DNA of 64,000 nt from a virus. The DNA is taken from the IMG/VR virus record IMGVR_UViG_3300030090_003629, positions 1 to 64,000 of that record; one strand, given 5' to 3'. Position numbers and translations under genes: made by a program. A model generated the notes under the pieces. It was not told the origin of the DNA and searched no databases. It was given only the letters and a program-made list of their open reading frames with translations. Of the stretch, positions 3,853-39,049 are shown piece by piece; within the stretch, counting starts at the first letter, position 1; the number at the start of each line of letters is the position of its first letter.

Positions 3853-3855
3853 ATC

Positions 3856-8227: not shown

Positions 8228-8228
8228 A

Positions 8229-11330: not shown

Positions 11331-11351
11331 TTTATTTTGTTTTAATTATTG

Positions 11352-11758: not shown

Positions 11759-14700
11759 TTATCTAATTAAAGAACTAGTTTCTTTTTTATCTCCCTCCAT
11801 GTTATACACATCTCTAGCTATACTTCTTCTTACTGATGAATATGGAGCTAAATCATATAACAATGTTTTTGCAGCTTTAGAATCTCCCTTTTCTCCATAA
11901 GGTCCAGACCTTTTTATTTTATCTCCTCTTACAGATTGCCCTATCATTTCTGTAGCATTTTTTATTGTGCTATAAGAAGCAGGAACTAAAGTGTAATTAA
12001 AGAATCTGTCGTAATCTGTAGTTACAAAAACATCATTAGAAAACTTTTTTAATGTTCTTATCATATTAGGATCTGAGTCTTCATCATCTTCCATTATAGC
12101 TATTAAACTTAATAGCGTTATACCTATACCCATACCTCTAAGGTGTGCTGCTATTTCAGCTTTTCTAGCTTCATTAGAATTATCCCATATTGCTTTTAAT
12201 TCTTTTTTACTTGTATTACCAGCTATATAACTTCTAAATAAATCTCTTACAAATTCACCTGTTGCCCTGTAGCTACCTATGTTAACTTTACCAAATCTGT
12301 CTATATCTTCTGCACTAAACCTGTCTTTTAATAATGTTACAAACCATTTTTTAAATTGTAACAATGCTCTACCATAAGAATACATAGAAAGTAAACTAGC
12401 GTCTAAAGCTGTATAACCCTCACCGTGCAGTGTAGATATTTTATGATTAATTTGCATTACACGTTCTTCAGTTATTAAATCTGGATTATTAAACTCTTCT
12501 TCCGTAAGCTCTCCTAAAAATGCAGCCCCTTGTATATAGTTTTCTGTAGCGTCCATAAATATATAAGACCATTTTTCTAGTTTACCAAAAGCTCCTTTAG
12601 ATTCTGACAAATGTATAAATTCATCAAAACTATATTCTACTATTCTAAATCTTTTTAGTATATCTCTAGATTCATATAGATTTTTAAAATAACGAGTTTC
12701 TCCTTTAATAAATTGTGCTCCACCTTTTTTTCTTAACTCTTGATATTTACCTGCTAATACGTTACCTATACCTACAGTCATGTTAAATCCTAACAATCTT
12801 AAAGATGTAAGCCTTACAAAACTATCTATAACTTTGTCTCCTGTTTTACCTAAAAAGCTTTCTTGTTGTCTGCCTTCTATAAATCCTTCTTTCCACCATC
12901 TTGTTAAATAATTAGCCGCATTTTTATTGTCTAAACCTTTGTTAAATGCTATAACAGAATCTATTAAAATAGACACTTTAGACATACCAGTAAAAGGATT
13001 TTCTATACCTTTAGACTTTTGTAAATCTACGTTTTCTCCATTCATAAATAATGAACCTCTTATAAATTCTAACAACGAACTGTTAATATCATAAGATATA
13101 TTTTTAGCTTTTATTCCTCTTCTTCTTTCATATTCTTCTATTAACTCTCTATCTACATCTGTAATGTTATTATCACCCATTAATTTTTTAATCATAGCAC
13201 CATTGTTTATTAATGCATCATACTCCATATCACTTAATAATATTTTAGAGCCATCCTCATTAATACCTTTAGCTTTTAATTCTTTAGCTTTTCTTCTTAG
13301 TTTATCTAACTCATATATCTGTCTACCAGATTCTAAAGTTAATTTACCTGTCCTGCCTTTATATACATCGTACTTCCATTCGTATAAAGTTTTTAAAACT
13401 CTATTGCCGCTTTTATCTAAACCGTATACTTTTACACGCTCTATATCATAAGTGTCAATAGTATTATCATATAAACCAAATAAACTGTTTCTTGACATTT
13501 TTTCTAATGTACCCATTTGCATGCCTGGTATTATATATGTGTCTGTGTTTAGTAATTCCTGTGCAACATTTTTATATTCTGTATAATATGCTCTTTCTTC
13601 TTTTGTTAAATTTTTATCAGCTAACTCTTCTTCAGTTAATAATCTAATATTACCATTTTCAAATGTAGCTATATTTCCATATATATACTTGTATCTAGCA
13701 TTAGTGTCAAAACCTTGTCTTACTCTTTCTAAAACGCTTAATCCTTTATTTTTAGATCTAACTAAACTCCTGTTTGCTTTTTCTAGTCTATCTTTATATC
13801 TTTTAAATGCTCTTAAATAGTTTCTATATTCAAATTGTATTTCATTTATTAATAACTGTAACTCTGGTCTTTTAGAAGATATATTATTAGATGTTAACCA
13901 GCTTTCTAATCCAGACATATCTTCTTGTTCCACACCATCTAATCCAGGAACTTTATATTTATATCCTTGTCGCTTTCCATCTGCTTTTAATTTTTTTGTT
14001 TGTATTTCAAATAATCTTTTTCCTATTTCTTTTTCTACTATATAAGAAATATTTTTAGTTGCAGAATTATCCATAGATCTTAACTTAAAAGCTCTTTTTC
14101 TTAAATCTTCTAGATTGTATTTAGACAATGGTTTCTTTTCTAAACTAGACTCAAACTCTTGCACTGTTTTATAGTGTTCTCTATATTTAATATATTTATT
14201 ATATAATTGTTCAGCTATTTTAGACTCTTTAATTTTTTGTATATCTATGCCTTTGTCAGCTAAATATTCTGAAAAAGATAAAATATTATTATCACCAGAT
14301 ATATAATCATTATTGTATGTTGTAGAAGAAGAAATAACTTTTTTTGCTTTTTTTGTAGGATCTATAAAAGTATTATTTTGTTTACTTGCCTTGTCTATTT
14401 TTTTATCAGTAGTTAAGTTTTTATTTAATTCGTCAATTATTGCATCATCTAATTCTATGCTATCTAAATTATCAAGATTACTCATATCATTAACATCATC
14501 GTATTTAAATTCTGGTTCTTTAGTTTGATTATTTGTTATAATTGTATTTATTTCATCATTAATTTTATTAATATACTCATTGTCAAAAAAAGGAATAAAT
14601 GATGCTGCCCCTCCTGCTCCTCCTGTAAATCCAAAGCCATTAAACTCTGCTTCTAGTTCAAATATTAAATTCTTTTCTTCTGGCAATAAATTAGAAAAAG

Positions 14701-17700
14701 ATTCTTTTATTTGATCAATAGATTTATAAGATATAAAATCTGTTACTTCAACTCTATTTATTACAACCTTGTCTCCTTTTTCTGTTACTTCTATTATTTT
14801 GTCTGTAAAGATATTATCTTTACCGTACTTTTCTTTCAGTGATATAAAATTATCTATTAAAGTTTCTCTATTTTCTATTTTAGATAAAAAACTTATATTA
14901 TTTTTTAAATCATTTATTATAACTCTATTTATTATAGCGCTGTATTTATCTGGATATAACATTTTTAACTCAGCATAAGATTCATTATTAATTATGCCTT
15001 GCATATATGGTGTAAACCTTATATCTGTAACAAAAGCTCTTTCTAATACAGTACTGAATAACTTTACAGCATGCTCTACAATACTGTTAAATCTACTTTC
15101 TCCTAGTTGGTAAGGTAATGATAGACCTCCACTTTTTCTATCATTTATAGTAATAAAATTTGTTTGTAGTTTCTTAATTTTTTGTGTTATTTGTCTTAAC
15201 TCAAATGGATTTTTTTCTATCTTTTGATGTACAGTAAAAGCTTTTCCAAAAGGATTTACAACATCCTCATTAAATTTGTCTAATGCATATAACATTATTA
15301 TAGCATCAAATTCAGCATTTCTGTTTTTTCCTTTAGTTAATAAGTCATTTATATTTATATTAATACCTTCTCCCTTTAGTCTAGAAACTATTGTTTCCCA
15401 CCTTTTTTGATCTATTCCTTTTCTTTTTTTACCAGTAATTTTTTGTTTATAAAAGTAAGTTAATTTTTTAACACCTTGACTTTCAAAAAATTCAGCCAAC
15501 TCATTTACATTATTAACTTGATCTTCTAAAAACATTTCTTGTATGTCGCTATCTTTAGAAATATAGTTTTTACTTCTCTTGCTTTTAAAATCAATATACT
15601 CTTGTACTATTGGGCTGTTAAATAGTAATGTTAAGTCATTTAAAGAATAACCTAACCTTCTTAACATAATATAAGAAAATATCGTTTGTTTATTTAATCC
15701 TAGTTTACTTGCATATTGATGTTTTGCATTATCTAAAACTATATTTAATAGTTGTGCAACCCCATACCAATTACCCACTCCGTTTTCTAATTCAGGATCA
15801 TCAAAAAACTTATCGTGTGTAACTGCTTCAGACTCTCCTTTTAACGTTATTTTAAAAGGTAATTTTTCTTCATTATTAGAAAATATATTAAATGTTCTTT
15901 GTAATGCAGCAACTATACCTACCAATGATTTTGCAGGAACATTATCGTTAAACATTTCACTATCTCCTAAGGGGTGCAATTGTGATTCTTCTTTTTGTTT
16001 TTTATTTTTATAAAGGCCTTTAGATTTAGCCTGTTCTATTGCATTATCCGAATCAGATACAAAGTCAATATTAGCTGTAATTTCATTTGTTCTTTTTTTA
16101 TTACTAACTAATTTTACATACAAATCAAAAAACCTGTTAGATTTTTTTCTCCAAGATTTACCCCTTTCATTTACCTCCTTTTCTGTATACTTAAAATTCA
16201 TATGAACAGAATCTCCATCTAAATCTGCCCCCCAAAACTTACTTACTTTTGCTGGTATAGTTATATTAGAAGTTGGTGTATCATCTATTTGAGCATGAAA
16301 ATCTTTTACTACAAACACAGAACTAGTAACCTTTCCGTGTGAAGGTACTCTTGTACCAATAAATAAATCTCCTACCTCTACACCTTGATCTTTTAAATAT
16401 CCAGGAACTATAGCTTCAGAAGCAACTATACTTTCATCTTCTGCAAACAATCCTTTTTCGTATGATTTTAAATTCATGCCTAAACTTGATGACTGATATG
16501 CTATAGATCCTTTTGTATACATTTTAGTTCCTCTATGTGTTATCCTACCTCTAGCTATAGAGTTATAAGAAGCATTTGCAAATGGGTATCTAGGATCTAA
16601 TGTTTCAAAAACAGAATCAAATAATACCCCATATATATCTGCACTAACAGAACTAGCAAAAGAATCTCTTTCTTTGTATACTGTTTCTCTAGTAGCGGTA
16701 TTATTCATAATTAAACCAGCTTTTCTATTTCTGCTTTCGTTATTAGCTTCCATAACATCTTTTCTTAAACCATACATTTCTTTAAGTATAAGTTTTTCTT
16801 CTTCTGTTATTATGTTTGTAGCTAAATTGTAAAATAATTGTGATGGAAAAAATCTTTCATCTGTTTGCTTATCTAACTCTAATTGTATACCAAAACCTTC
16901 TCCTGACAAGCCTCTATATCCAGTATCGTCTTTATACAACAGGTCTTGTCTTTTCATAATATTATCTATATTGTCTAAATTTTTAATATCATGTATATCT
17001 TCTTTTGTTCTTATGCCATCTAAAAATAATTTAGCAGCAGACTCTGACGCAGCTATTACTAGATTACCTGGTGTTTTAGAAATATCTTCTACTTGTTCTT
17101 GACGTTTTCTTAATACCTCTCCTATATTTTTTAAGTATTCACTTTTAGCTTCTAACTCTCGTGTTAATGTATGTACAGCAAATTTTAAATATGTTGTCTT
17201 CCCTTTTAACTTACCTTCTGTTTCTGTATAATGATAAACAAACTTAAATACATTACCTACTTTTTGTGACTCTCCATATTTTTCTCTAATAATTTTTGCT
17301 TGCTCAGGCAATACATAACCCATAGCATCATTTTCTATATAGTTATTATCAGTTTCTTCTGTAGTAATCTTATTATTATCATCAATAAAATAATCTTTTA
17401 TTATAATAGGCTCTATCATAGTGTTTCTATCAAACACAACATGACTTGCTATTGCACCTGCAGCTCTTTTTATATAATCTATTTCATCTTTAGATTGCCT
17501 GTGATCATGTACAAATAGTTGTTGCGCCATAAACTTATTAGCAATATGTGATGTTAAATATGCTTCTATAGCTTTATCTATATCTTTTGTTTCTAATATG
17601 TCTTCATTGTTTATGTATAAATCCTTATTAATTCTCATGTGTTGTTTAAAATCAACAACTAATTTCTTAATGTTTTTTATTCTATTGTTTTCAATTACAT

Positions 17701-20700
17701 AAGGAAATATATCTGATCCTTTTTGATACTTTTTGCCATATGCTGGATTTCTTTCAATTCTTGACAATAATTCTTTTCTTGTTTTACTATTGTGAGCCAT
17801 CATACTTTCTATATAATATCTTCTGCTTTTGTCAGAAAATACAGCTATAGGCTGATCGTATATTATTGTTTCTTCTTTATTTTTTATTCCTTGATTGTAT
17901 TGCGATAAAAATTGTAAAAAATCACCTGCAACTAATTCTTTAGGAGTTACATAGTTTAGCTTAGAAGCTCTACCTTCATATTTTACAGCTTCAGCTTTAG
18001 CAATTAACTCACGCATCATACCAGAGTGTATAGTAAACCTAAATGGGTTTTGACTAACTTTACCATTGCTTCCAGTTAGCACCCCTCTTGCTTTTTTACT
18101 ATACAATAAATAAGAATATATATTATTATCTGGATGCATTATATCATCTTTAGATATATCTATTTCTTCATTAATTATATTAGCTATATTTTTTGCTCTA
18201 TTATGTAAGCCGTTTTCTTTATTAAATATACTGACACCGTCACCCATAACATTATCTACCATAGACAAATAATTAATAGCTCTAGATGCCACAAGACCTT
18301 CTGTTAATATTACTTTTAACTCGCCTTGTTTTCCAAACATTAATCCATAAGCTTTGTATTTTCCTGTTTGTACAGTAAATTTACCTTCTTTATCAATACC
18401 CATTAAAGATTGATATTTTAAATTAGGTTTGCCATTTTTAAATCTTTTGTGTTCAAATAATAAATTCCATAAATACTGTCTTTTACCATCAAATAATATT
18501 TCAGTATTTAATAAAGCTCTTTTGTCTATTAGCTTACCTTTTGCATTATCATCTAAAATTATATCTAAATATTTTGTTGCTGCTATATATTTTTGCTTAG
18601 AAGTAGGTTTTTCATTTTTAAATAAATTATCATATACTTCAGCTAACTTTTTCCCTTTTTCAGTGTTGTTATTTAAATCTTTAAGTATGCTACGTATAAC
18701 GCCTTGCTCTAATGTTTTACTAATAGTTCTGTATTTTTTAAAAGACTTAACAGCTCTACGTCTTGATTTGTCATATTTTATTTCTAATGCCTGATGTGAT
18801 AAAACCTCTATTGTAATACCTTCAATGGGTCCTTTAATTTCCATTAACTTAGCGTTAGTTAAAATTTTATCATTATTATATAAATTATCTAACAAACCTA
18901 ACATAGCTTCTATTTCTCTACTTCCAGACTTTCTTACATTTGGTATAAAATCATATGGATCATACATAGTATTTTTAGACATGCTATATAAATCGTATAA
19001 TAATTTTTTTCTATCTATTACTTTATCAGGATTTTGATTGTTATAAACCTCTACTATTTTTTTTATAAAATTAGAAGTTGTTGTAGGTAAGGCTATTTGT
19101 TTTACATCATCATCAAAATTTCTTTCTGCACCAGGCTGACTTTCATTACCATCTTGACTTACATCTTCTTCTTTACCAATACTTTTTCCTATATTAGACA
19201 ATATACGATCTAGTTTATCGTCTGCTAATTTTAAATCATTTGGTCTTGTTTTTTGTCTAACTACAGCTTCAACTTGCGATTTTATAAAATCTACATCTTT
19301 TATTGTTAATTCACTATCCTTTGCTATTTGTTCAACTACTCTATCTGCAATTTGTTCTGATGTTAATCCACGCCCCATAAAATCACCTATAGTTTTAGAT
19401 AAAGCAGAATACGTAGATCTTTTTCTAATTGCTTTTTTCTTAGCTTTATTTATCGGTCCATATGCAGAATTTTGCATTACAGGTACTGTTCTGTTTCCTG
19501 AATTAAAGTCTAAAAGTATATGTTTTATTGCAGCTTCTAAATCTAAACTTTGTATATTGTCAACTGATAAATCTAATAATCTTTTTGCGTCTTCATTAGA
19601 TGTTAGCTTTTTTACTTTCTTATAAAACTCTATTAAATCTTTTTCTAATCTTTTTTGTGTTGCGGTTCCTTTTATAACAGCATCAACATTATCATAAGAA
19701 TAAAATTCTAAAGTTCTTGAAAATGTTTCTTCTAACAAATGCCTTTGTCTGTCTACTCTAACTTCTTTAATTCCTTGTGCTTTTAATTGTAGTCTAAGCT
19801 CATTAAACAATTCCATTGTTCTTGTGCCGTCATTGTTTCTTTCTGCTATAGCAATGTTTTCTGAAATACTTACAATATCACCAGTATAATCTGCTTTATT
19901 ATTTAATGCGTTTCTATATATAGCTCCAATAGTAATATTTTGCCCATTAACTCTCATTAATGTTAACTCAGGATATTCTTCTTGTGTCTTTTTGTATAAT
20001 AAAGATTTAGGTAAAAGCTTTTTTATTCTTTTCATTAATGGAGTTTTTTCCATTAACGAATAATATATATGTCCTGCTTCGTGTATAATATCAGATTGCC
20101 TAACTTCGTTTTCGTTTATCATAAGCGTAGCGCCTATTGCTAATGATGTAGCTTCTTGTCCATAATCATCATACAATGCTTTTTGTACTACGTAACCCTT
20201 AGCTCCAGGAAAGTTTTTGTTTATAATAGACCTAGTTAATGCGGAAGCAGCTAAACCTGAATCTGTATATACTTCTAAATTACGATTTAATAATATTGGA
20301 TCATTTTCTTTTATAGTAGAAAATGTGCTTTTTATGAATTTATTAAAATTATCTTTTGTTTGCTTTACTGCGCCTACTACCTTATCTATACTTCTAGTTT
20401 CTTTTTTCTTTGCTTTTTTTGTTGTGGTTTCTTCTATTGTAAAATCTTGATATTGTAATTGTCCAATAACCTTATTATCTACTATTACTTCAATTTTACT
20501 TTCATATAATGGTGCTCCTTTTTTATATTGAAAATATAATTTACCATTAACTTCTACCACATCAGCTTGCCCTGCTACTGGTTCTACTAAATTTAATTTA
20601 ACATTTTGTGGTGTTTTAGTTAAAGCTTCTGCTCCAAAAGGTTTAGATGTAAAAAATTTGATAACTTTACCTGTAGCTGTTTTTAATATGTAACTAGTAG

Positions 20701-23602
20701 TGCTAGCTCTACCTTCTTTATCTATTACCTTAGATATACTTGCAGCCTGTAATTTTATTCCTTTATCTTTTAAAGATTTTTCTGTTTCTTTATACTCCTT
20801 AGTTTTAGGAGCTACGACTGATTGGTCTTTTTTTTTTACGTCTGCTTTTGCTCTTTTAGGGTCTACTCTTTGTTTTTGATCAGAAGTTAGTCTATCAAAC
20901 ATTTTAGGATTCATAACTGTTTTGTAGTCTCCAACTTTTCCTACAGTATATGTCATACCAGAAGGTATAACCTTATCTGTTTTAGCGTCTCTTACTGTTG
21001 CTTGCGTGTACCCTTTAATAGCTTCTTCATTAGATATATTATCTCTCTTTTGTATCTTCTCATCTATTACTGTTGCTGGGGTCCATCTATCTGCTGCTTC
21101 TGACCACTGTGTCCACTCTACTGTTCCGTCTAATCTTGTTACAGCTCTAAATCTAGCGTGCACTGACCCGTCTTCCTCATAAACAGTAAATTCTTCTGTT
21201 TTAACAGGAACTTGCTTGTCTTTATATCTAGGTTTTTCTTTTTCTTTTGTTTCAGTCCTCTCTTCTTTTTTTACTGCCTTATCTACATCTCCTCTATTAA
21301 TAACTTTATTAATTCCTGTACCTATTATTTTACCAGCCGCAGCAGCAGTTATTTTTCCAGCCTCTAATGCTTTTAATAAATAATCTTTTGCTGTAGATGT
21401 AATTTTAGTTTTATCGTAATTTTTTATTTTTTTAATTGCCTCCTTAACTTCAACTGACTGTATCTTTTTTTTTCCTTTACCAAACAACCCCTTAACCCCT
21501 TGTACAACTTTAGATATAACTGACGGTTCTTGCTTTTTAGCATCGTCAGCTTTTTTTGCCTCTTTTTGCGAAAACTCTGTAACCTCATCTTTTGTTAGTC
21601 CTTGTACTTTAAACCTAGCATCTCTTTTTCCTGTTGACTTAGCTATTGGCGCTTTGTCTACTCTTAATGTATATATATCTTCTATTTCTCTTTCTAATAC
21701 ATTCATATCATCTTGCAATGTTTCCATAATAGATAGATGATTTTGTTCTGCTTTTTCTAATGCTTTCTTTTGTTTTTCTGGATTTTTTATATTTTCTTTT
21801 ATATTAGCCCGATCTATTTCATAAGATTTCTTTTGTAACTCTTGTTGTTGTAAATTTCTAGATTTTCTAGTTTCTCTAAAAAATGCTTGCCTTGCTCCTT
21901 CTTCTGTTAATATACTATTTACAGTATGTTTTTCATAATTCTTTTCTGCTTGTTCTACAGCGGCTATATATTCATCTGCTGTTTGTTGTGACATTTTTTT
22001 GTCCTTTACCATGTTGTTTATGTACTCTATGACAACAGAACCATCACCTCTATAGTTCCAAACGTTTAATGCTATTATGTTGTCTTGTACTTGTGCTTCT
22101 GCTGCATAGTACTGGTCAGGATCTTTTGCAGACTCAATTATTCTAGCATTTTCATTTATGGCTTCTTGATGCTCATTTAATGCAGAGATTCTTTCTGCTG
22201 CTGCATCAAAATATCCTCTTGCGCCTCCCATCGCTCCACCTAAACCTACAGAAGACCAAAATATATCTCTTATTTCAGGACGTATATTTCCATAACTATC
22301 TTTTACCCAATCAGTCATTCCTAAATATTCTTCTCCTTTTGCTTGTTGTATATTTTTGTATTTATTCCACTCTTGGTGAGTTTCTTGTATACCTTCTGTC
22401 AAACCTTCTACTGTAGCATATGCTCCTGCAGCAGGTAAAAGAGGTAATCTTTTTCGTACAGCATAGGACACTAAACCTCTTACCGAATCTTTATAATTTA
22501 TTTTTTGTAATGGATTTAATAATAGTCTTTTAGCCATAGATTTACCTACACCTCCAAATAATAAACCATATGATATTGCATCTGCACCAACCCACCATGC
22601 ATTTGTTTTCATTACATCTGTAGCATGTGACGCTGCTTCATCTGGTGTAAATAATAAATTACCATCTTCATCAGTATCTCTTAGCATTTCATTATACGCT
22701 TCTCCAGCTAAATATGCTCCTTCAGCCATGTTTGCTCCCAAACCACCACCTGCAAATGAGCCTATATTACGCATAAATTTTGTTTGTGCTAAACCTTTCT
22801 TGCCAGCATCAAAAGCTAACTTACCTAATATACCAGATCCCTGTATACCTTTGTTACCCATACCTATACCTTTACCCATAGTACCAATAGGGACTCCCAT
22901 AATTTTTTTAGCCTTATCTGCTTTTGATAAAGCTTTTGCTGACATCATTCCAAATCTTCCTAATAAAGCACCTCCTATTCTTGCTCCTGCAGTATATGGT
23001 ATAGCAAATGACAATGCATAAGGAACTAATCTAGCAATTTTAGAGTTCCAAAATTCTGCACGGAACATATCACCAAAAGTTACGTCTTTCATTTCATCAG
23101 ACAATACTAACAAATTTTCATTTTGTTTTTGTGCTCCAATTTTTTTAAAATAATCACCTAGACGTGTAGTAGGTTCTGGATCTCCTGGTCTAGCCCACGC
23201 ATTTATAAAATCTAAAGTTTCTCCAGTACCATACAATAAATCTCCAAAACCAGCTTTTATACTTCTTTCTAATTTTTCTCCTCCAGAACCAATCATAGAT
23301 AATGGATCTAGTATTTCTTGATTTGGTGCAGAACCATATCGTAATCTATCTAGACCACTATATTCATCTGCCGATATATCACTAGCAGCCATTGCTCTAG
23401 AATATTTGTTTAGCAAAGGATCATCTATATTTGCCTGTGCTACATTTTGAAACATTGCATCCATAGACATGGGCGTGTCCATTTCACTGTCATATGATTG
23501 TTGTATATCTTGTTGAGGTGTATTTATATTTACACTTTCGCTTTCAGCTAAATTGCCTAATATTTGATTTAACCCTGATGTGTAATCATTACTTTCTGCC
23601 AT
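11759..23602 (-). CDS. Giant virion protein with RNA polymerase (beta-prime-like) and zincin-like motifs
   Basis: 3947 residues. An Ala/Gly-rich hydrophobic region (about 190-480) and coiled coils are followed by a Lys-rich linker (about 690-850). HEAGH at 1174-1178 fits a zinc metallopeptidase, with EETF downstream as a possible third ligand. At about 2400-2470 comes RVPSHGK, then KFWGADLDGDSVH with catalytic-type DLDGD at 2460-2464, matching the NADFDGD motif of multisubunit RNA polymerases and the crAss-like virion polymerases. MGDGVSIFN (about 1786-1794) could belong to the other double-psi barrel. The C-terminus has one hydrophobic helix. By family precedent it is packaged, ejected and transcribes early genes. 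It overlaps its upstream neighbour at 23602. Confidence 0.8.
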   Translation of the reverse strand: MAESNDYTSGLNQILGNLAESESVNINTPQQDIQQSYDSEMDTPMSMDAMFQNVAQANIDDPLLNKYSRAMAASDISADEYSGLDRLRYGSAPNQEILDPLSMIGSGGEKLERSIKAGFGDLLYGTGETLDFINAWARPGDPEPTTRLGDYFKKIGAQKQNENLLVLSDEMKDVTFGDMFRAEFWNSKIARLVPYALSFAIPYTAGARIGGALLGRFGMMSAKALSKADKAKKIMGVPIGTMGKGIGMGNKGIQGSGILGKLAFDAGKKGLAQTKFMRNIGSFAGGGLGANMAEGAYLAGEAYNEMLRDTDEDGNLLFTPDEAASHATDVMKTNAWWVGADAISYGLLFGGVGKSMAKRLLLNPLQKINYKDSVRGLVSYAVRKRLPLLPAAGAYATVEGLTEGIQETHQEWNKYKNIQQAKGEEYLGMTDWVKDSYGNIRPEIRDIFWSSVGLGGAMGGARGYFDAAAERISALNEHQEAINENARIIESAKDPDQYYAAEAQVQDNIIALNVWNYRGDGSVVIEYINNMVKDKKMSQQTADEYIAAVEQAEKNYEKHTVNSILTEEGARQAFFRETRKSRNLQQQELQKKSYEIDRANIKENIKNPEKQKKALEKAEQNHLSIMETLQDDMNVLEREIEDIYTLRVDKAPIAKSTGKRDARFKVQGLTKDEVTEFSQKEAKKADDAKKQEPSVISKVVQGVKGLFGKGKKKIQSVEVKEAIKKIKNYDKTKITSTAKDYLLKALEAGKITAAAAGKIIGTGINKVINRGDVDKAVKKEERTETKEKEKPRYKDKQVPVKTEEFTVYEEDGSVHARFRAVTRLDGTVEWTQWSEAADRWTPATVIDEKIQKRDNISNEEAIKGYTQATVRDAKTDKVIPSGMTYTVGKVGDYKTVMNPKMFDRLTSDQKQRVDPKRAKADVKKKDQSVVAPKTKEYKETEKSLKDKGIKLQAASISKVIDKEGRASTTSYILKTATGKVIKFFTSKPFGAEALTKTPQNVKLNLVEPVAGQADVVEVNGKLYFQYKKGAPLYESKIEVIVDNKVIGQLQYQDFTIEETTTKKAKKKETRSIDKVVGAVKQTKDNFNKFIKSTFSTIKENDPILLNRNLEVYTDSGLAASALTRSIINKNFPGAKGYVVQKALYDDYGQEATSLAIGATLMINENEVRQSDIIHEAGHIYYSLMEKTPLMKRIKKLLPKSLLYKKTQEEYPELTLMRVNGQNITIGAIYRNALNNKADYTGDIVSISENIAIAERNNDGTRTMELFNELRLQLKAQGIKEVRVDRQRHLLEETFSRTLEFYSYDNVDAVIKGTATQKRLEKDLIEFYKKVKKLTSNEDAKRLLDLSVDNIQSLDLEAAIKHILLDFNSGNRTVPVMQNSAYGPINKAKKKAIRKRSTYSALSKTIGDFMGRGLTSEQIADRVVEQIAKDSELTIKDVDFIKSQVEAVVRQKTRPNDLKLADDKLDRILSNIGKSIGKEEDVSQDGNESQPGAERNFDDDVKQIALPTTTSNFIKKIVEVYNNQNPDKVIDRKKLLYDLYSMSKNTMYDPYDFIPNVRKSGSREIEAMLGLLDNLYNNDKILTNAKLMEIKGPIEGITIEVLSHQALEIKYDKSRRRAVKSFKKYRTISKTLEQGVIRSILKDLNNNTEKGKKLAEVYDNLFKNEKPTSKQKYIAATKYLDIILDDNAKGKLIDKRALLNTEILFDGKRQYLWNLLFEHKRFKNGKPNLKYQSLMGIDKEGKFTVQTGKYKAYGLMFGKQGELKVILTEGLVASRAINYLSMVDNVMGDGVSIFNKENGLHNRAKNIANIINEEIDISKDDIMHPDNNIYSYLLYSKKARGVLTGSNGKVSQNPFRFTIHSGMMRELIAKAEAVKYEGRASKLNYVTPKELVAGDFLQFLSQYNQGIKNKEETIIYDQPIAVFSDKSRRYYIESMMAHNSKTRKELLSRIERNPAYGKKYQKGSDIFPYVIENNRIKNIKKLVVDFKQHMRINKDLYINNEDILETKDIDKAIEAYLTSHIANKFMAQQLFVHDHRQSKDEIDYIKRAAGAIASHVVFDRNTMIEPIIIKDYFIDDNNKITTEETDNNYIENDAMGYVLPEQAKIIREKYGESQKVGNVFKFVYHYTETEGKLKGKTTYLKFAVHTLTRELEAKSEYLKNIGEVLRKRQEQVEDISKTPGNLVIAASESAAKLFLDGIRTKEDIHDIKNLDNIDNIMKRQDLLYKDDTGYRGLSGEGFGIQLELDKQTDERFFPSQLFYNLATNIITEEEKLILKEMYGLRKDVMEANNESRNRKAGLIMNNTATRETVYKERDSFASSVSADIYGVLFDSVFETLDPRYPFANASYNSIARGRITHRGTKMYTKGSIAYQSSSLGMNLKSYEKGLFAEDESIVASEAIVPGYLKDQGVEVGDLFIGTRVPSHGKVTSSVFVVKDFHAQIDDTPTSNITIPAKVSKFWGADLDGDSVHMNFKYTEKEVNERGKSWRKKSNRFFDLYVKLVSNKKRTNEITANIDFVSDSDNAIEQAKSKGLYKNKKQKEESQLHPLGDSEMFNDNVPAKSLVGIVAALQRTFNIFSNNEEKLPFKITLKGESEAVTHDKFFDDPELENGVGNWYGVAQLLNIVLDNAKHQYASKLGLNKQTIFSYIMLRRLGYSLNDLTLLFNSPIVQEYIDFKSKRSKNYISKDSDIQEMFLEDQVNNVNELAEFFESQGVKKLTYFYKQKITGKKRKGIDQKRWETIVSRLKGEGINININDLLTKGKNRNAEFDAIIMLYALDKFNEDVVNPFGKAFTVHQKIEKNPFELRQITQKIKKLQTNFITINDRKSGGLSLPYQLGESRFNSIVEHAVKLFSTVLERAFVTDIRFTPYMQGIINNESYAELKMLYPDKYSAIINRVIINDLKNNISFLSKIENRETLIDNFISLKEKYGKDNIFTDKIIEVTEKGDKVVINRVEVTDFISYKSIDQIKESFSNLLPEEKNLIFELEAEFNGFGFTGGAGGAASFIPFFDNEYINKINDEINTIITNNQTKEPEFKYDDVNDMSNLDNLDSIELDDAIIDELNKNLTTDKKIDKASKQNNTFIDPTKKAKKVISSSTTYNNDYISGDNNILSFSEYLADKGIDIQKIKESKIAEQLYNKYIKYREHYKTVQEFESSLEKKPLSKYNLEDLRKRAFKLRSMDNSATKNISYIVEKEIGKRLFEIQTKKLKADGKRQGYKYKVPGLDGVEQEDMSGLESWLTSNNISSKRPELQLLINEIQFEYRNYLRAFKRYKDRLEKANRSLVRSKNKGLSVLERVRQGFDTNARYKYIYGNIATFENGNIRLLTEEELADKNLTKEERAYYTEYKNVAQELLNTDTYIIPGMQMGTLEKMSRNSLFGLYDNTIDTYDIERVKVYGLDKSGNRVLKTLYEWKYDVYKGRTGKLTLESGRQIYELDKLRRKAKELKAKGINEDGSKILLSDMEYDALINNGAMIKKLMGDNNITDVDRELIEEYERRRGIKAKNISYDINSSLLEFIRGSLFMNGENVDLQKSKGIENPFTGMSKVSILIDSVIAFNKGLDNKNAANYLTRWWKEGFIEGRQQESFLGKTGDKVIDSFVRLTSLRLLGFNMTVGIGNVLAGKYQELRKKGGAQFIKGETRYFKNLYESRDILKRFRIVEYSFDEFIHLSESKGAFGKLEKWSYIFMDATENYIQGAAFLGELTEEEFNNPDLITEERVMQINHKISTLHGEGYTALDASLLSMYSYGRALLQFKKWFVTLLKDRFSAEDIDRFGKVNIGSYRATGEFVRDLFRSYIAGNTSKKELKAIWDNSNEARKAEIAAHLRGMGIGITLLSLIAIMEDDEDSDPNMIRTLKKFSNDVFVTTDYDRFFNYTLVPASYSTIKNATEMIGQSVRGDKIKRSGPYGEKGDSKAAKTLLYDLAPYSSVRRSIARDVYNMEGDKKETSSLIR

Positions 23603-25653
23603 TATTGTTGATATTTATATATGGTTTTACTTAACTTTCTGCTTTGTTTATATTGTGATGCTGGATATATTGTTTGACTATATTGATCATAGTTACCTTT
23701 ATTTATAGCTTCCAGCATAGATACAAAGTTAGGATTTTGCGTTGCAAGACCTTCTTTTAATAGTTTAGTTGATAAAGCCATATATTGTCCTGGACTATTA
23801 GCTATTAATTTTTTAGAAGGATCAGTTTCGTTAGGAGTAAAATCAAATGGATAATTTCTTTCCTGTTTTGACTGCACATACAAATCTGCCATTATCATTG
23901 GTATTGCTTTTCTTGCGTTAAATGAACTTACTCCTGACATACTTAATCCTATGTTTAATGTTTTGTCGTATCCATTAACAAACTGCTGTGTCAAACCTTC
24001 ATTTGGCATTTCTAATTGTTTTGTTAATTTATTAGTAGATGCTATTTTTCTTTGATTTGCATAGTTCTGTTGTGCTATTTGTTGCTCATAATTACCCATG
24101 TCTGTTTTAACTTTATTAAGATCATCTGTAGGTACCGCTTCATTTATTGCAGCTTGTATTGTAGCGTCTTCTAAATTAATCTTTTTATAATATGCATCAT
24201 CTGGGCCTAAATCATCGTCTATAAGTTCTGCTACTATTACATAGTCAAACTCTGTATTTTTATATTGCTCACGCATTTTATTTAAATCTGATTCTTTTGA
24301 AACATCAGTTAGTAAAAAAGAGTCTCCATTTGCATTTTTTCCTTCAAGAGCTACATGATAACCTCTAAGTCTTAAATCATCTCTTTCAGATTCTTGCCAT
24401 AAATCCTTACCTGTGATATTCATTGAAGCTATATCTGAATCTGAAATTTGATGTCCATATCTATCATACAAACCAGCCATTCTTACATTATCTACTTGTC
24501 TATTTCTTGTATTGTATCTTGATTCTTCTGAATTGCTATATTTTCCTGCCCATGATCTTGTTATTGCAGTTTCTAACTTAGGATTAAAAGCAAAAATTCT
24601 AGGACTTGCTACAAGTTGCGTTCCTTTAGAAAATGGAGCGCTTATACCTTTATAATTTTCTGGACCATGATTTTTATCAACACCACCTATTCTATCCCAA
24701 TTAGTAAAAGCATCTGTTGAATTAAACATATCTTGGAAATTAATACCTTGATCTTTAAATTTAAAAAAGTCTTTACCTGTTGCTATTTGCGTTAAACCAA
24801 CAGAATCTAAATTTCTTACTAACTCTCTAGAAAACGTTGTATCTATTTCTTTATCTCCAAATATAGCTTGACCATTAAAATATGTAACACCATCAACTTC
24901 TTGATAACCCAATTCTTTTTTAACAAATAATTTCATATCATCATACGTTATAGCAGATTGATATTCTTGTACATTTTCTGGGTTAGCATCATTTATCATG
25001 TCTATAATTATAGATTGATGATTTGATCCAATTAGATCGTCTATATCTAAATTTTGTGCTTTTGTTAAACTCAAAGCTTCTTTAGCTTGCTCTATATAAT
25101 CTCTTCTAGGAGCATTAAATATAAAATTATCACTTTCTCCATTAACAAAATCTGTGTATCTTTTTTTTGCATTTGTTGTTATTAAATGCGAGTACTTATT
25201 ATTTAAAGCATGCGAGTGATATAACTCTAAAGCAGCTTGATTTTTTTTAGTTCTTTGTGATATTGGATTATTTTTTAATCTAGCTTGATATTCTGCTATT
25301 AAATAATCTAAATTTCCGTACAATCTAGCATTATCTATAGAACCATGTTCTCTAAGCACACCCTGTATATCATTCCATCCTGATAATTGTTGATGCCAAG
25401 CCTTAAAATCATCTACATCTTTTTGTCTTGCAAATTTATTATTAGTATATAAATCATTAAACGCAGTTTGTTGAGCTTGTACTAATTGATTGTTTTGTTC
25501 ATTTTTTCTATTTAATTGAGCAAGCTCTTGCATTTGTAATTGCATTTGCTGCTGTTTTAAAGCATTTTGCTTTTGTAAACGTGCGTTTTGTAAATCGCCT
25601 GCCCCTAGCATTGGACCTGTTAATGCACTAAAAAACCCTGAGTCTATTGTCAT
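23602..25653 (-). CDS. Large virion/ejection protein, 683 aa
   Basis: The N-terminal 70 residues are a Gln-rich coiled coil (LKQQQMQLQMQELAQLNRK). The rest is mixed with many Asp/Asn and Tyr and no recognised domain. It is translationally coupled to the giant polymerase protein (start/stop overlap at 23602) and overlaps the tail-lysozyme gene by four bases. Neighbouring genes of this kind encode internal proteins delivered with the genome; this assignment rests on context. Confidence 0.6.
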   Translation of the reverse strand: MTIDSGFFSALTGPMLGAGDLQNARLQKQNALKQQQMQLQMQELAQLNRKNEQNNQLVQAQQTAFNDLYTNNKFARQKDVDDFKAWHQQLSGWNDIQGVLREHGSIDNARLYGNLDYLIAEYQARLKNNPISQRTKKNQAALELYHSHALNNKYSHLITTNAKKRYTDFVNGESDNFIFNAPRRDYIEQAKEALSLTKAQNLDIDDLIGSNHQSIIIDMINDANPENVQEYQSAITYDDMKLFVKKELGYQEVDGVTYFNGQAIFGDKEIDTTFSRELVRNLDSVGLTQIATGKDFFKFKDQGINFQDMFNSTDAFTNWDRIGGVDKNHGPENYKGISAPFSKGTQLVASPRIFAFNPKLETAITRSWAGKYSNSEESRYNTRNRQVDNVRMAGLYDRYGHQISDSDIASMNITGKDLWQESERDDLRLRGYHVALEGKNANGDSFLLTDVSKESDLNKMREQYKNTEFDYVIVAELIDDDLGPDDAYYKKINLEDATIQAAINEAVPTDDLNKVKTDMGNYEQQIAQQNYANQRKIASTNKLTKQLEMPNEGLTQQFVNGYDKTLNIGLSMSGVSSFNARKAIPMIMADLYVQSKQERNYPFDFTPNETDPSKKLIANSPGQYMALSTKLLKEGLATQNPNFVSMLEAINKGNYDQYSQTIYPASQYKQSRKLSKTIYKYQQ

Positions 25654-27713
25654 TCTCCTTTTTCTTTATTAATTAATTCTTGTAAATCTTTTAAGCTTAC
25701 AGATTGATTTCCTACATTATCTATATAATTATAAAATGGACTACCGCTTGCAGGAGTTGTGTTTGACAAAGAGCTTCCTCCCAAACCAGATAAAACATTT
25801 GCAAAAGCAGCTCCTGTAAATTTAACAGCAGCATCTTTATTTGCTTGTTGTCTTTTCATATCTTCTGTTCTTTCTTTCTCTGTTTGTTGTATGTCAAAAT
25901 TTTCTTTAAACATCATTAACTTTTCATACTTATCTGCATTTTTTCTTTGCAGCTCATCGTCTTTTGCAGCAAAATCTAATAACGCAGAAGATCTTTGAGC
26001 ATCTAAAACTCCGCTTTGTGCTAAGAATCTAGCTCTATTACCATTTGTACCTCTAACAGCATTTTCTAAACCTAATTGATATGCATAGTCTATTTCATTT
26101 CTAAATTTATTTGCCTCGTCAGGATGAAAACCTTTTTTAGCCAACTCTCTACTTTGTCTTAAATGTTGCATAAACATAGGAGATAACTTAGCACTAGCTT
26201 GTGGCTTTACTTCTTTCATAGCTTCTGCTAGGCCTTTTTTACCTAGCACGTATGATATAATACCTCCTGGGCCACCAACATAATCTAAAACTTTACCTGC
26301 TCCCTTTATTAAACTAGATCCCAAGCCAGCTAAACCTTCTAATGGAGTGCTAGGAACATTAGTAACGTTTTTATCTGTTTGTTCTGTTGTATCTACACTT
26401 TCTGGTGTTACTAAAGATTCATCTGTACCTGTACCCCCATCAATATCTATTGTATCAGGAATACCATCACCATCTTGGTCAATCATCATTTCTTTTGCCC
26501 TTTCTTCTTTTATTTTTTCTTGTCTTTTTTTTGCTTCTTTTTGAAATGTATTTGGTACAAAATTTGGATTTATTTGACCTTCTTTTCCTAATTTAAAAGT
26601 ACCATCATCGTTAATTACACGAAATTCATTTTTATCTTTGTCCCACTTGTATCTGTTTTCTTGTATCTTTATAGGCCTTGACTTGTCTATATTATCAATA
26701 TTTTTATATACCTCATCAAAATTTGTATATTCTATTTCTCCTGTTTCTTGTAATTTAAAAGATCTTTTTATATCTTCTTGTGTTACATTTTCTCCAATAG
26801 GTATTGTAATTATTTGATCATTTGGACCCATTACTTGTACGTATTGTGTTTCTCCTGGAACAGACCCTTTAATTGCTGCTTTTGCTACAGTATTATTTCC
26901 CTCTTGTTCAACAATATATAGTTGCCCTTCTTTATCAACTGATAAATTTTCTGGAGGCAAACTTTTTATTACATCAGCATCTTTTTTATCTTCTATTTTT
27001 ATTTCTGGTAATTTACCAGCATCATAGGTTTTTCCTTCTTCTTCTACTGTAACTTCTGGCAATTCTCCAGCGTCTACAGTAGTACCCTGTTCCTCTACTG
27101 TAACTTCAGGTAATTCACCTCCATCTACTATAACATCATCATCTGTAGCTTCTTCATCTTTAACTTCTTCAGGACTATCAATATTTTTTATAACCGTTGG
27201 TATATTTTCTAATCTTGTTCTTGCAGTATCAATTGCATTTTGTGGTCTTTCCCAGTTAACAGTAAACCATGTAGAAGCTTCTTGTTCATTAGGAAAATTT
27301 TGTGCTAAATATTTTTTAGTGTCGTTTTCTTTTAAAGCATAATCTATTTGCCCTTTCCAATCAGTTTTCCAATCACTACCAGCAGATTTTTTCATAGCCT
27401 CAAATCTAGAGCCATAATGCTGAAATAACCCTCCCGACTTAGCTTTTATCCCGTCCCATAGATCAGATGGAACTTTTTTTCTTGCTTTTGTAGGGTGATA
27501 CTTAGTATAATACCAAGACTTGTCTTTTCCTTGAAAAACTAATTTTTCTGCATTTGATAGTTTTTTCGTTGGGTCTGCTATCATATAATCTCCTAACACT
27601 CCAACATTAAAACTACTTTCTGATTTTATATTGTTAATCATACCTATAGCATGATTACGAGATAGGCCTTTTTTTATTAAGTAGTTATATAATTCTTTTT
27701 CTGTTACTTTCAT
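25650..27713 (-). CDS. Virion protein with N-terminal tail-lysozyme domain
   Basis: 687 residues. Residues 1-170 match the phage tail lysozyme family: GLSRNHAIGMINNIKSESSF with catalytic-type Glu32, and SGGLFQHYGSRFEAM (93-107). It would cut peptidoglycan during genome entry. About 195-245 holds three copies of a DAGELPEVTVEEEG-like linker. A short DQDGDGIPDTID segment later resembles a thrombospondin type-3 calcium loop. The C-terminal third is helical and Lys/Gln-rich. It sits in the ejection-protein cluster and overlaps both neighbours. Confidence 0.75.
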   Translation of the reverse strand: MKVTEKELYNYLIKKGLSRNHAIGMINNIKSESSFNVGVLGDYMIADPTKKLSNAEKLVFQGKDKSWYYTKYHPTKARKKVPSDLWDGIKAKSGGLFQHYGSRFEAMKKSAGSDWKTDWKGQIDYALKENDTKKYLAQNFPNEQEASTWFTVNWERPQNAIDTARTRLENIPTVIKNIDSPEEVKDEEATDDDVIVDGGELPEVTVEEQGTTVDAGELPEVTVEEEGKTYDAGKLPEIKIEDKKDADVIKSLPPENLSVDKEGQLYIVEQEGNNTVAKAAIKGSVPGETQYVQVMGPNDQIITIPIGENVTQEDIKRSFKLQETGEIEYTNFDEVYKNIDNIDKSRPIKIQENRYKWDKDKNEFRVINDDGTFKLGKEGQINPNFVPNTFQKEAKKRQEKIKEERAKEMMIDQDGDGIPDTIDIDGGTGTDESLVTPESVDTTEQTDKNVTNVPSTPLEGLAGLGSSLIKGAGKVLDYVGGPGGIISYVLGKKGLAEAMKEVKPQASAKLSPMFMQHLRQSRELAKKGFHPDEANKFRNEIDYAYQLGLENAVRGTNGNRARFLAQSGVLDAQRSSALLDFAAKDDELQRKNADKYEKLMMFKENFDIQQTEKERTEDMKRQQANKDAAVKFTGAAFANVLSGLGGSSLSNTTPASGSPFYNYIDNVGNQSVSLKDLQELINKEKGE

Positions 27714-29836
27714 TACGCCATACCGTTAGATTTCCATTTTTTAATATTTTTACTAGCAACTTTTGCTATTTCTTTATCAGTCATTGTAGTCTTAAACTGA
27801 TCTGTAGCGTGGTCATAAACACCAGCACCTTTATTAACTTTAAAGTTTAATTTACCTCCTTTTGTATATATATTACCTTCGTTGTCTACAGGCATAGGAT
27901 TACTTTTATGAGTTTCTTTTCCAGGTGTAATATAACCACCTTTCATTGCTTTTCTTATAGGAGCTGCTGCCATTGCATAATTACCAGATCTTAAACCTTC
28001 TTCTACTTTATTTTGATCATTTACAATAAGTTCGTTTCCTGTAAATTCTGCTACTATTTCTTTGGTTTTTCCACCGTATTCAAACTTCATTCCTTTTTTA
28101 GCATAATCTAATTCTTCTTCTACATTAGGAGTAACAAAAGGATTTTCTTTTGAGCTAATCCAATCTCCTTCTGGTTGCATATTTTTACGCTCTTGTTGTA
28201 ATTGCGATAATTTAGCCATTGGTGTAAGCTGTATACCCGATTGTACAGGTTGTCCCATATCTCTAACTTGTTCAGGCCTTTTCAATATGTCTGTTCTACC
28301 TTGATCTAATGAGTACATATCCATTTGACCTGGACTTAATAAATCCATTAACCCTTGTATATAGTCTCCAACAAATTCAAAACCTGGTCTTGCTAGTTCC
28401 ATAGCTCCATGACCTACATCGTCTATTGCATCAAATCCCATATCAAGAGTATTTTGTGCAAAATTCATTGTTGGCCTTAATACAGAGTCTAATGCTCCTG
28501 TTGCTAAATCTGCTGGCTTATCTAAAGCGTCTGATACTGTATCCATAACTGGTTTAATTATAGGCTCTACAAGATTTTGTCCAACTGTTTGCAGTGTTTT
28601 ACCAGTAGCATCTGGAACAGTTTTTACAAGGTTAGTTGCAACCTTAACTCCAGTATTTACTCCTTCACTTACCAAATCACCAGCCCCCTTTATAATTGGA
28701 CTTACTGTATCTTGTATTGGATCTACAACACTTCCTGCTGCATCAAAAAATGGGTCTGCAATAGGTTGTAATACATTTCCTACTCCACTTAATATATTTG
28801 ATACTGGATCAAAAATAGAGCTAAGAACACTTCCATATCCATACTCAGGCAACCCAGTATAAGGATTTTTAGTACCACTACCCCCTAAAGCTTTTAATAA
28901 AGCTGCTTCAGGCGGGTTCACGTGCGCGAGCATAGTATCTCCATTTCTTCCTGCTTTAGCTATTTTATTTAATTCTTTTGGTGTAAACTTCATACCTTCT
29001 TTACCATAACCCTGAAATCTATCTGTTAGGTTTCCACCATACTGATTATCATACCTTGAAGATCTTTCTGTATACATGTCAGCCATTGCCCTAGCATTTA
29101 TATCATCTCTTATATCTTGCATTTCTTGTGATCTTTCTCTGTACCCTTCGTCTTGTTGTCTTTCTATATCTTGTACCACTTTTTGATTAGCAGCGTCTAC
29201 ATTCTTTTGTCGTTTTTTATTAAAGATATTTCCTAATAATAAAGCGCCTATCATTACTAAAGGATTTATTCCTCCTGCTCCTATTTTTAATGCTGTACCT
29301 CCAGCCAAAGGAGCTAGTTTACTTGTAGCAGGTATTAGTTTAGATAATTGATGTGCAGCCATCATAGTTGACCCTATTGTACCTAATTTTTCTTGTCTAG
29401 TTAAAGTATATGGATTATTGTCAGTACCGAATGCACCATACACAGCAGCAGCAGGACCAAAATTTACACTTCCTAAAGCTCCTGGTGCCTCCATTCCTAA
29501 ACCACTATAGATTGATTGAGCTCCAGATCTTATAAATGGACTTACCTTACTTCCTAAGTTATATCCAGTCATACCTGATCCAAACTTCATTAAGTTTTTA
29601 TCAAATTTACTTATACCGCTTAATTGATCTTTATATACACTTCTAGGATCTTGAACTTCTGAATATTGAGCATACATATCTCTGATATTTTTAGGAAAAT
29701 ATGCTTCTGAAGAATATGGATTTACTCCTTGTTGCTGTAATATTACATCTAGATTATTACCTTTATTAGCATAGTCTGATACGACATTTGCATCTTTTAA
29801 TGTATTAATAGCATTTATAACATTTGAATAACTCAT
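27713..29836 (-). CDS. Internal/ejection virion protein with amphipathic helices, 707 aa
   Basis: A hydrophobic helix (LVMIGALLLGNIF, near residue 200) is followed by a Gln/Arg-rich coiled region and then a long series of amphipathic helices (for example VSPIIKGAGDLVSEGVNTG). The last 110 residues carry a block (FEYGGKTKEIVAEFTGNELI, then KGGYITPGKETHKSNP) that recalls C-termini of large structural proteins in other Bacteroidota phages. Such proteins may insert into membranes at ejection. No enzyme motif. Overlaps its downstream neighbour at 27713. Confidence 0.6.
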   Translation of the reverse strand: MSYSNVINAINTLKDANVVSDYANKGNNLDVILQQQGVNPYSSEAYFPKNIRDMYAQYSEVQDPRSVYKDQLSGISKFDKNLMKFGSGMTGYNLGSKVSPFIRSGAQSIYSGLGMEAPGALGSVNFGPAAAVYGAFGTDNNPYTLTRQEKLGTIGSTMMAAHQLSKLIPATSKLAPLAGGTALKIGAGGINPLVMIGALLLGNIFNKKRQKNVDAANQKVVQDIERQQDEGYRERSQEMQDIRDDINARAMADMYTERSSRYDNQYGGNLTDRFQGYGKEGMKFTPKELNKIAKAGRNGDTMLAHVNPPEAALLKALGGSGTKNPYTGLPEYGYGSVLSSIFDPVSNILSGVGNVLQPIADPFFDAAGSVVDPIQDTVSPIIKGAGDLVSEGVNTGVKVATNLVKTVPDATGKTLQTVGQNLVEPIIKPVMDTVSDALDKPADLATGALDSVLRPTMNFAQNTLDMGFDAIDDVGHGAMELARPGFEFVGDYIQGLMDLLSPGQMDMYSLDQGRTDILKRPEQVRDMGQPVQSGIQLTPMAKLSQLQQERKNMQPEGDWISSKENPFVTPNVEEELDYAKKGMKFEYGGKTKEIVAEFTGNELIVNDQNKVEEGLRSGNYAMAAAPIRKAMKGGYITPGKETHKSNPMPVDNEGNIYTKGGKLNFKVNKGAGVYDHATDQFKTTMTDKEIAKVASKNIKKWKSNGMA

Positions 29837-37039: not shown

Positions 37040-38176
37040 CTAGAAATTAATTAAACCTGAACTGCTTTTAACTGGTATTAAAGTATTCCACATATTTCCT
37101 ATTTGTTTTAATTCTTCAGAAGTTGGCATTCCATCATCACCTCTTGCTTTACCACATAAAAAATACCACCTTTTTTCTAATTCTTTAGTTATGTATTGCG
37201 GTAACTTACCATTATAAAACTCTATTAATTTCATTTGCCACATTATATATTGAGCTACAGCTGATTCATGTCCTTCTTTAACCATAGGATAACCCCTCAT
37301 GTCTGTTGGATACGCCAAATATACAATAGTTATTTCATCTAAATTATCATGTTGTACATTTAATCTGTTACCATCTACATAATATCTAAACGCTCTTTGC
37401 TGTGTATCAGCAAAAGATTTTCCCACTCTTTGCCTATGTGTTGCAGCTGATTTTCTTAACTCTGTATGTTTGCTTCCGCTAGCTTCCGCTCCTACCCTTA
37501 CCCCTAATAATTTTACTATATTTTTTGGTAAAACTAATTGTTGATTTCTATATATACCCTTACCTCCTGTTAAAGATCCTCCGCTAATTTTAGCATTTGT
37601 ATTATTAGATTCTAATGTATAGTCATTTCCTTCTATTCCTATATCTTTAGCCGTTATAGTTAATATTCCAGGAGTAGAAGCACCAGAAGGAGTTACTGTA
37701 TAATCTACATTTCCTAATAATTCTGGATATGTATTTATTGCTGAAGCCGTATATACTCCAGTACCTGTTTGTGAATTTCCAGATAAATTTTCAAACAAAC
37801 CTCTTTCATTACCACTACCCGCTGAACCTGAAGCTAAGGTTGCATCTAAGGTAGAACCTATAGTAATTTCATTTGGGGATTGTGAAGCTCCAATTGAAGT
37901 TGAGGTTGTGCTTCCTCCAACTCTAAAAATAAGTTCTACACCATTTAAAGTTATGGTATCTCCGCTTGTTGGGTTATCTGTAAATTCTATTGTACCTGAT
38001 GCAGCTGCACCGCTTGATGTATATGTAGATTCTTTTTGAACAAAAGTATCTTTACTTCCAATTAATTTTTCAGCCTCATATGTCCATTCAATCCAACTAG
38101 AAACCATATCTGTATAATCTGTTATACCTAGATTTCTTGCTACTGTACTAAATACTCTTTCAATGTATACGTGCAT
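37040..38176 (-). CDS. Connector/ring protein with inserted beta domain
   Basis: 378 residues. The ends look like a helical head-tail adaptor (VARNLGITDYTDMVSSWIEW at the start; YIMWQMKLIEFYNGKLPQYI near the end). Residues about 55-185 form a separate Gly/Ser/Thr-rich domain with ITLNGVELIFRVGG and GNDYTLESNNTNAKISGGSL, a pattern seen in many phage sheath and surface proteins. The insert probably projects from the ring. It lies between the large tail protein and a small beta protein, two bases from the former. Confidence 0.65.
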   Translation of the reverse strand: MHVYIERVFSTVARNLGITDYTDMVSSWIEWTYEAEKLIGSKDTFVQKESTYTSSGAAASGTIEFTDNPTSGDTITLNGVELIFRVGGSTTSTSIGASQSPNEITIGSTLDATLASGSAGSGNERGLFENLSGNSQTGTGVYTASAINTYPELLGNVDYTVTPSGASTPGILTITAKDIGIEGNDYTLESNNTNAKISGGSLTGGKGIYRNQQLVLPKNIVKLLGVRVGAEASGSKHTELRKSAATHRQRVGKSFADTQQRAFRYYVDGNRLNVQHDNLDEITIVYLAYPTDMRGYPMVKEGHESAVAQYIMWQMKLIEFYNGKLPQYITKELEKRWYFLCGKARGDDGMPTSEELKQIGNMWNTLIPVKSSSGLINF

Positions 38177-38656: not shown

Positions 38657-39049
38657 TTAATCTTTATTTATTATTTTTTTTGAATAACCTAACGGTAAAA
38701 CCTTACAGTTTCTAAATGTTACAGGCCTTACCCATATTAACTTTTTATAAAAGTCATCTAATATAGGTACTTTTATTGTCACTGTTTTACCTTCTCTTTT
38801 TGTCGCTTCATTATCCACCCTGTAATGAAAAGCTCTTTTATGTGGTCTTTCGTCTAAATATATATGACCCATTTGGTTTGGCAAATATACTTTACGATTT
38901 CTAAAGACTACATCTCTAATTAATATTTCAAAAAATCTTTTAATTATATTGTAAAACAATGAATATGATATTTTTTTATACATTATATCGTTAATATTAT
39001 TATATATATCTCTTACAGATATGTATTTATCTTTGTACTTGTGACCCAC
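38657..39049 (-). CDS. Small basic protein, possibly distant HU/IHF-like
   Basis: 130 residues, basic. A helical N-half (YSLFYNIIKRFFEILIRDVV) is followed by RNRKVYLPNQMGHIYLDERP, which recalls the strand-turn after the helices in HU/IHF-type proteins (...V.LpgfG.i.v). IHF-like genes are known in the structural block of crAss-like phages, which makes this plausible. The DNA-binding arm is not obvious, so this is tentative. Its start overlaps the upstream ring-protein gene by 23 bases. Confidence 0.45.
   Translation of the reverse strand: MGHKYKDKYISVRDIYNNINDIMYKKISYSLFYNIIKRFFEILIRDVVFRNRKVYLPNQMGHIYLDERPHKRAFHYRVDNEATKREGKTVTIKVPILDDFYKKLIWVRPVTFRNCKVLPLGYSKKIINKD

Follow-up and report, generated by a model that had tools for sequence, protein, structure and literature searches.

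A giant open reading frame in a crassvirus-like phage probably encodes a virion RNA polymerase that joins the gp67, gp66, and gp65 transcription block in one chain

Introduction

The transcription blocks of crassviruses are otherwise known as two or three giant proteins. In Steigviridae (phi14:2, cr128_1, Kolpuevirus frurule, cr126_1, and cr106_1), the gp67-, gp66-, and gp65-type proteins are encoded by separate ORFs. In Suoliviridae (cr1_1, cr50_1, cr4_1, cr53_1, and cr115_1), gp67 is joined to gp66 and gp65 follows, a two-ORF pattern also seen in cr7_1 and cr125_1. In Intestiviridae (cr8_1, cr11_1, and Carjivirus), gp67 is followed by a joined gp66 and gp65, and the block of the Flavobacterium phage Fpv2 occupies two ORFs. 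None of the 15 named crassvirus records that we examined, which are a sample and not a census, held the block in one ORF; all had two or three. Given that crAss-like polymerase ORFs reach up to about 6,000 aa (PMC10136315), a complete one-ORF fusion may exist elsewhere in crAss-like phages.

Phi14:2 has the same gene order as the present locus, and its gp65-gp67 were detected by mass spectrometry according to its record. HExxH motifs are frequent in crassvirus blocks, with HEAFH-type motifs before the polymerase and HEIxH-type motifs in gp65, and crAssphage records carry the annotation "RNAP associated protein fused to zincin protease." Here, we describe a giant ORF of an environmental phage related to gut crAss phages, in a window of 64,000 nucleotides, positions 1 to 64,000 of the IMG/VR virus contig IMGVR_UViG_3300030090_003629 (65,665 bases). 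Sequence comparison is best explained if this ORF joins the gp67-gp66-gp65 transcription block of crassviruses into one chain.

Results

The giant ORF spans 11759..23602 and encodes 3,947 aa, as the earlier note had described, and it runs without interruption on the minus strand; read on the plus strand, the same stretch contains many stops. The protein carries HEAGH at residues 1174-1178, GDG at 1787-1789, RVPSHGK at 2418-2424, and DLDGD at 2460-2464; the motif positions given in the earlier note hold exactly. In 2,000 shuffled versions of the protein, D.DGD appeared in 7% and HE..H in 2.4%, so either motif alone is weak evidence and conservation is needed to support it. As a single sequence, the ORF gave no useful match in Pfam, PHROG, or PDB sequences, and its family profile matched no PDB sequence; the protein is therefore recognizable solely via profile-profile and fold comparison. 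Residues 480-1100 and 1400-1900 matched nothing.

Scans of 2.9 million viral contigs provided 26 loci related to the giant ORF, and additional searches revealed none beyond these. Full-length single-ORF orthologues, the window's ORF included, number 19 and measure 3,698-4,100 aa, always in one frame. DLDGD, G.R.P.HGK, and H-E-x-G-H are invariant in 19/19 of them, as is the LDNAK segment, and WGADLDGD..HMNF is invariant across the alignment. HExGH always comes first, with a spacing of about 1,220-1,330 residues to DLDGD. Conservation is highest in blocks 2000-2500 and 3550-3800. Between close relatives (two near-identical contigs), dN/dS was 0.03-0.17 in the well-aligned parts, and by this measure the gene is under purifying selection; for L003, the whole-range value was 0.31, which we ascribe to the poorly aligned stretch close to the end of the contig. 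No close relative was present in any named phage or cellular genome searched: residues 1-1500 and the C-terminus had no named relatives in 50,697 phage records, and 84,980 bacterial and archaeal genomes contained none. A more distant relative, L033 (2885-13744), is 24% identical and has the same N-terminal and polymerase modules, with DHDGD intact. Its contig stops before the C-terminal module.

Profile-profile comparison with hhalign aligned residues 2010-2681 with crAss-like RNAPs (phi14:2 gp66 and nine others) over 633 columns, with an E value of 2.4e-20. In the same test, another seven segments and four further target families gave probabilities of at most 1.7% except for expected pairs; of the other 38 segment-target pairs, the sole one above 2% was the expected N-terminal pair described below. 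The RNA polymerase core (residues 2010-2690; 15533..17575, on the minus strand like every feature of the chain) aligns with gp66 residues about 849-1669. Within this core, Asp-2460, Asp-2462, and Asp-2464 of DLDGD (16211..16225), the predicted Mg-binding aspartates, align with DFDID 1361-1365 of gp66, and RVPSHGK (16331..16351) has its counterparts in RIPNQG of gp66 and RIPTQG of other crassviruses. Further downstream, LLNIVLDNAKHQY...LRRLGY (residues 2600-2690; 15533..15805) aligns with FLNAFVDNAKDPY...LIRAGV of gp66. This segment likely represents the bridge-helix/trigger-loop region, a functional name that we infer.

An AlphaFold2 model of residues 1840-2860, built from the alignment of 19 sequences, had a mean pLDDT of 71.8. 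Foldseek returned one significant PDB match for this model, 6VR4, the phi14:2 virion polymerase (gp66), with an E value of 6.7e-19, a probability of 1.00, and a TM score of 0.59 on the query; this match carries the caveat that 6VR4 may be among the PDB structures used to train AlphaFold2. No other PDB match passed an E value of 0.001, and the next, much weaker and non-significant matches were plant RDR2 and E. coli beta-prime, followed by the AR9, phiKZ, and ASFV polymerases. The beta-rich stretches of the model lie at residues about 2062-2240 and 2363-2470. Together with the profile alignment, they place the catalytic barrel (beta-prime-like DPBB-A) at about 2363-2470 (16193..16516) and the second barrel (beta-like DPBB-B; strands at model residues 223-400) directly upstream, at about 2062-2239 (16886..17419). 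The DPBB-B region contains NDAxGYxLP, KFVY, and YLKFAV, then GIQLELDK and PSQLFY. Because the hhalign alignment spans both regions in order and the fold matches 6VR4, both barrels are predicted to lie in one polypeptide, with DPBB-B ahead of DPBB-A. The earlier note had suggested that GDG at 1787-1789 may belong to the second barrel. We rejected this candidate, as G1787 is variable among the orthologues (the L002/L029 orthologue has ENQG at that site) and lies outside the aligned core.

The profile alignment to the gp66 family and the fold match to 6VR4 thus identify the polymerase, and they support the view that DLDGD and the upstream RVPSHGK form the predicted active site of a two-barrel RNA polymerase of the crAss-like kind, in agreement with the multisubunit-type active site that had been proposed from the motifs. 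The shuffle frequencies and the lack of a Pfam, PHROG, or PDB sequence match for the ORF alone could also be explained if the motifs had arisen by chance in some unrelated giant protein of a phage, or if genes had been joined by an assembly artefact. This explanation is refuted by the 6VR4 fold match, the profile match, and the 19 full-length ORFs with the same layout, and we assign it practically no weight. Alternatively, the chain might descend from a polymerase but act as a non-catalytic structural or ejection protein, considering that most of it has no assigned role and that crassvirus polymerases diverge very fast. However, the three aspartates, RxPxHGK, and LDNAK are invariant in the 19 orthologues, and DHDGD is kept even in L033, which renders a non-catalytic protein highly improbable.

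The C-terminal module (residues 3560-3900; 11903..12925) shares homology with the C-terminal part of RNAP-associated proteins of the gp65 type. Profile-profile comparison of residues about 3500-3920 with gp65 C-termini gave an E value of 2.3e-20 over 396 columns, and single-profile searches with the module reached E values down to 6e-16 and matched the correct ORF in each named phage, namely a separate second ORF in Steigviridae and Suoliviridae and, in cr11_1 (Intestiviridae), the terminal part of the ORF that encodes the polymerase. The earlier reading had missed this module and, with it, the fused make-up of the chain.

The N-terminal module (residues 95-480; 22163..23320) is conserved in the family, matches L033 with an E value of 1e-16, and weakly resembles the N-terminus of phi14:2 gp67 (38% probability, E 3e-4, against the gp67 profile; other targets below 1%). 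By subgroup, the E values were 5e-4 for Steigviridae and 0.003 for Suoliviridae, within a range of 5e-4 to 0.27, and no match was obtained for Intestiviridae. The weak resemblance to gp67 concerns the patterns FW..K...PYALSF.IP and EGxxEGxQExYQ, and the N-terminus of the giant ORF is colinear with gp67-type proteins. These data weakly suggest a gp67 identity for the module. The fused chain is shorter than gp65, gp66, and gp67 combined (3,947 versus 5,398 aa), indicating that parts of these proteins are missing or unrecognized in it.

Between the N-terminal module and the polymerase, motif conservation and a predicted helix define a zincin-like region (residues 1100-1370; 19493..20305). Its HEAGH (20069..20083) represents the invariant H-E-x-G-H and sits on a confidently predicted helix, and an invariant Glu-Glu (residues 1291-1292; 19727..19732), located 117-124 residues downstream of HExGH across the family, is a candidate third metal ligand. 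The proposal of a fused metallopeptidase at HEAGH is therefore upheld as far as the motif and its helix are concerned, but not with respect to a zincin fold or family: the model of the region (mean pLDDT 64) had no significant Foldseek match in PDB or BFVD, and no Pfam match was found. Furthermore, L033 has FEELGH in place of HExGH and has lost the first His, with the polymerase triad kept. Structure prediction, suggested beforehand as a check, supported the polymerase region and not the zincin-like one. Homology of the HEAGH region to crAss zincins was considered and rejected (0.1-1.7% probability); the region aligns with neither the HEAFH- nor the HEIxH-type. The combination with a zincin and the large size, which had been singled out for attention, are not unusual in view of the crAssphage annotation and the polymerase lengths cited above.

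In L011 (2900-15202), residues about 950-1180 form an extra 230-residue insertion with HETIH and NIHEFLTYSLTNPVF. Its HETIH domain is homologous to the zincin-like domain found in gp65 of phi14:2 (22 proteins compared, E 2e-11), which gives the L011 chain a second zincin-like domain. We conclude that the region around HExGH probably represents an auxiliary metallopeptidase or the decayed remnant of one; the gain in L011 and the loss in L033 suggest that the putative peptidase is likely auxiliary, gained and lost.

The same motifs raise the question of whether the polymerase is processed, with either its own HExGH peptidase or a protease of the host cutting the chain during assembly or after ejection. 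The resulting gp67-, gp66-, and gp65-like pieces would then work as individual subunits, as they do in other crassviruses. Such processing would agree with the invariance of HExGH and the downstream Glu-Glu in the family, with the recurrence of zincin motifs in the block, including the second one gained by L011, and with the fusion points varying among crassvirus families, by which the chains may be interchangeable with separate proteins. On the other hand, no known zincin fold or family was matched, L033 keeps its polymerase triad without the first His, and the separate crassvirus proteins work without such need. We consider processing unlikely, while leaving it some weight.

The giant ORF ends a late-type minus-strand block, in which it is preceded by the terminase large subunit (47706..49520), the portal protein (45400..47703), the crassvirus major capsid protein (42701..44203; PF23898, E 2.8e-34), crassvirus tail ring proteins 2 (39027..40106; PF25702, E 8.7e-7) and 1 (37040..38176; PF24228, E 1.4e-20), and the crassvirus muzzle protein (29839..37038; PF25731, E 4e-135), all on the minus strand. 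Replication genes, e.g. that of a DnaB-like helicase, are on the opposite strand from the giant ORF. Among candidate IHF subunit genes, the small ORFs at 38187-38654 and 38657-39049 had no Pfam match. At 2,399 aa, the muzzle protein is about double the size of the corresponding Pfam model for crassviruses (length 1,224) and has large insertions. The capsid, muzzle, and ring proteins mark the phage, by sequence similarity, as crassvirus-like. Its TerL shares about 30% identity with that of Crassvirales and has matches in Flavobacterium phages as well. At 65.7 kb, the record falls short of the full-length crassvirus records compared (about 93-104 kb).

Between the muzzle and the polymerase are three minus-strand genes for proteins of ~700 aa: a 707-aa protein with weak tape-measure similarity (27713..29836; phrog_1535, E 2e-5), a 687-aa putative ejection protein with an N-terminal phage tail lysozyme domain (25650..27713; PF18013, E 9e-13), and, directly upstream of the giant ORF, a 683-aa protein (23602..25653) in the position of crassvirus cargo proteins, to which a candidate function is assigned by position alone. 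The three are comparable to the cargo proteins of crAss001, whose virions contain gp45, gp46, gp47, gp49, and gp50 (PMC10172136).

Gene position likewise suggests that the giant ORF encodes a virion protein. An early or middle non-virion enzyme that remains unpackaged would have a precedent in the Thermus phage P23-45, whose genome carries genes for virion as well as non-virion two-barrel RNAPs (PMC10770324). However, the end of a late-type block is the position of the packaged polymerases in phi14:2, and the gp65-like C-terminal module matches a known constituent of virions, making a non-virion enzyme very unlikely.

Two further observations were made downstream of the giant gene. The ORF at 5717-8239 (minus strand, 840 aa) has a signal-peptide-like start and many YGCTDSTxFNYNPxANxDNGSC repeats, presumably of the kind found in secreted Bacteroidota proteins, which hints at a Bacteroidota host. 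At 10959-11726 (minus strand), two similar ORFs (123 and 124 aa) lie side by side and share the ending GSCICYLAPxGY, an apparent tandem duplication.

Discussion

The uninterrupted ORF, its conserved motifs, the homology of its polymerase core and C-terminus, the predicted fold, and the adjoining crassvirus virion genes lead us to read the giant protein as a one-chain virion RNA polymerase belonging to a crassvirus-like phage (probability about 0.87). The chain would run from the N-terminal module through the HExGH region and the two-barrel polymerase to the gp65-like C-terminus. Expressed late, it would be packed as capsid cargo, its terminal modules in their presumed roles, and would leave through the tail, by way of the rings and muzzle, before the DNA does, accompanied by the smaller cargo proteins encoded next to it. 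In the host, it would refold and transcribe early genes without the host polymerase. A bolder version, which we regard as quite unlikely, is a complete ejectable one-chain transcription machine with its own peptidase, which would cut the chain after delivery (or trim the ejection channel) and thereby free the polymerase solely inside the host.

What is new here is the fully fused, compact variant of the crassvirus transcription block; the crAss-like polymerase family and zincin fusions in the block were known. One shorter chain with all recognizable parts would show which segments are indispensable, fix their order and 1:1 stoichiometry, and offer a single-gene target for expression. The variation of zincin motifs in the block, with loss and gain in relatives, makes their role testable. 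The locus adds a crassvirus-type lineage whose record is compact (about 65 kb) and which is known from IMG/VR contigs alone.

Gp96 of the Thermus phage P23-45, likened here by description alone, is also one giant chain that combines a DFDGD polymerase with a metallopeptidase domain (PMC10770324). Its polymerase, however, is N-terminal, clampless, and fused to the tape measure of a long-tailed phage. In Suoliviridae (cr1_1, cr4_1, cr50_1, cr53_1, and cr115_1), HEAFH or HEAWH precedes DxDxD by about 1,400-1,530 aa within one ORF, and the polymerase is joined to the upstream module as in the giant chain, whereas the gp65-like part is a separate downstream ORF and the zincin regions are not alignable with the HEAGH region. 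Intestiviridae and Carjivirus (crAssphage) resemble the giant ORF in joining the polymerase to the gp65-like part and in having an upstream protein annotated as fused to a zincin protease, but they use two ORFs, and the zincin-bearing gp67-like protein is separate.

The giant ORF shares with phi14:2 gp66 (6VR4) the predicted two-barrel single-chain core, the RxPxxG...DxDxD arrangement, the VDNAK segment, and a block placed after the muzzle, and its C-terminal module is homologous to the C-terminus of phi14:2 gp65. The zincin-like HEIMH of phi14:2 resides in gp65 and matches the L011 insertion, but not detectably the HEAGH region. The active site motif is DFDID in gp66 and DLDGD in the giant ORF, and where phi14:2 has three separate proteins (1,797, 2,180, and 1,421 aa), the phage described here has one of 3,947 aa.
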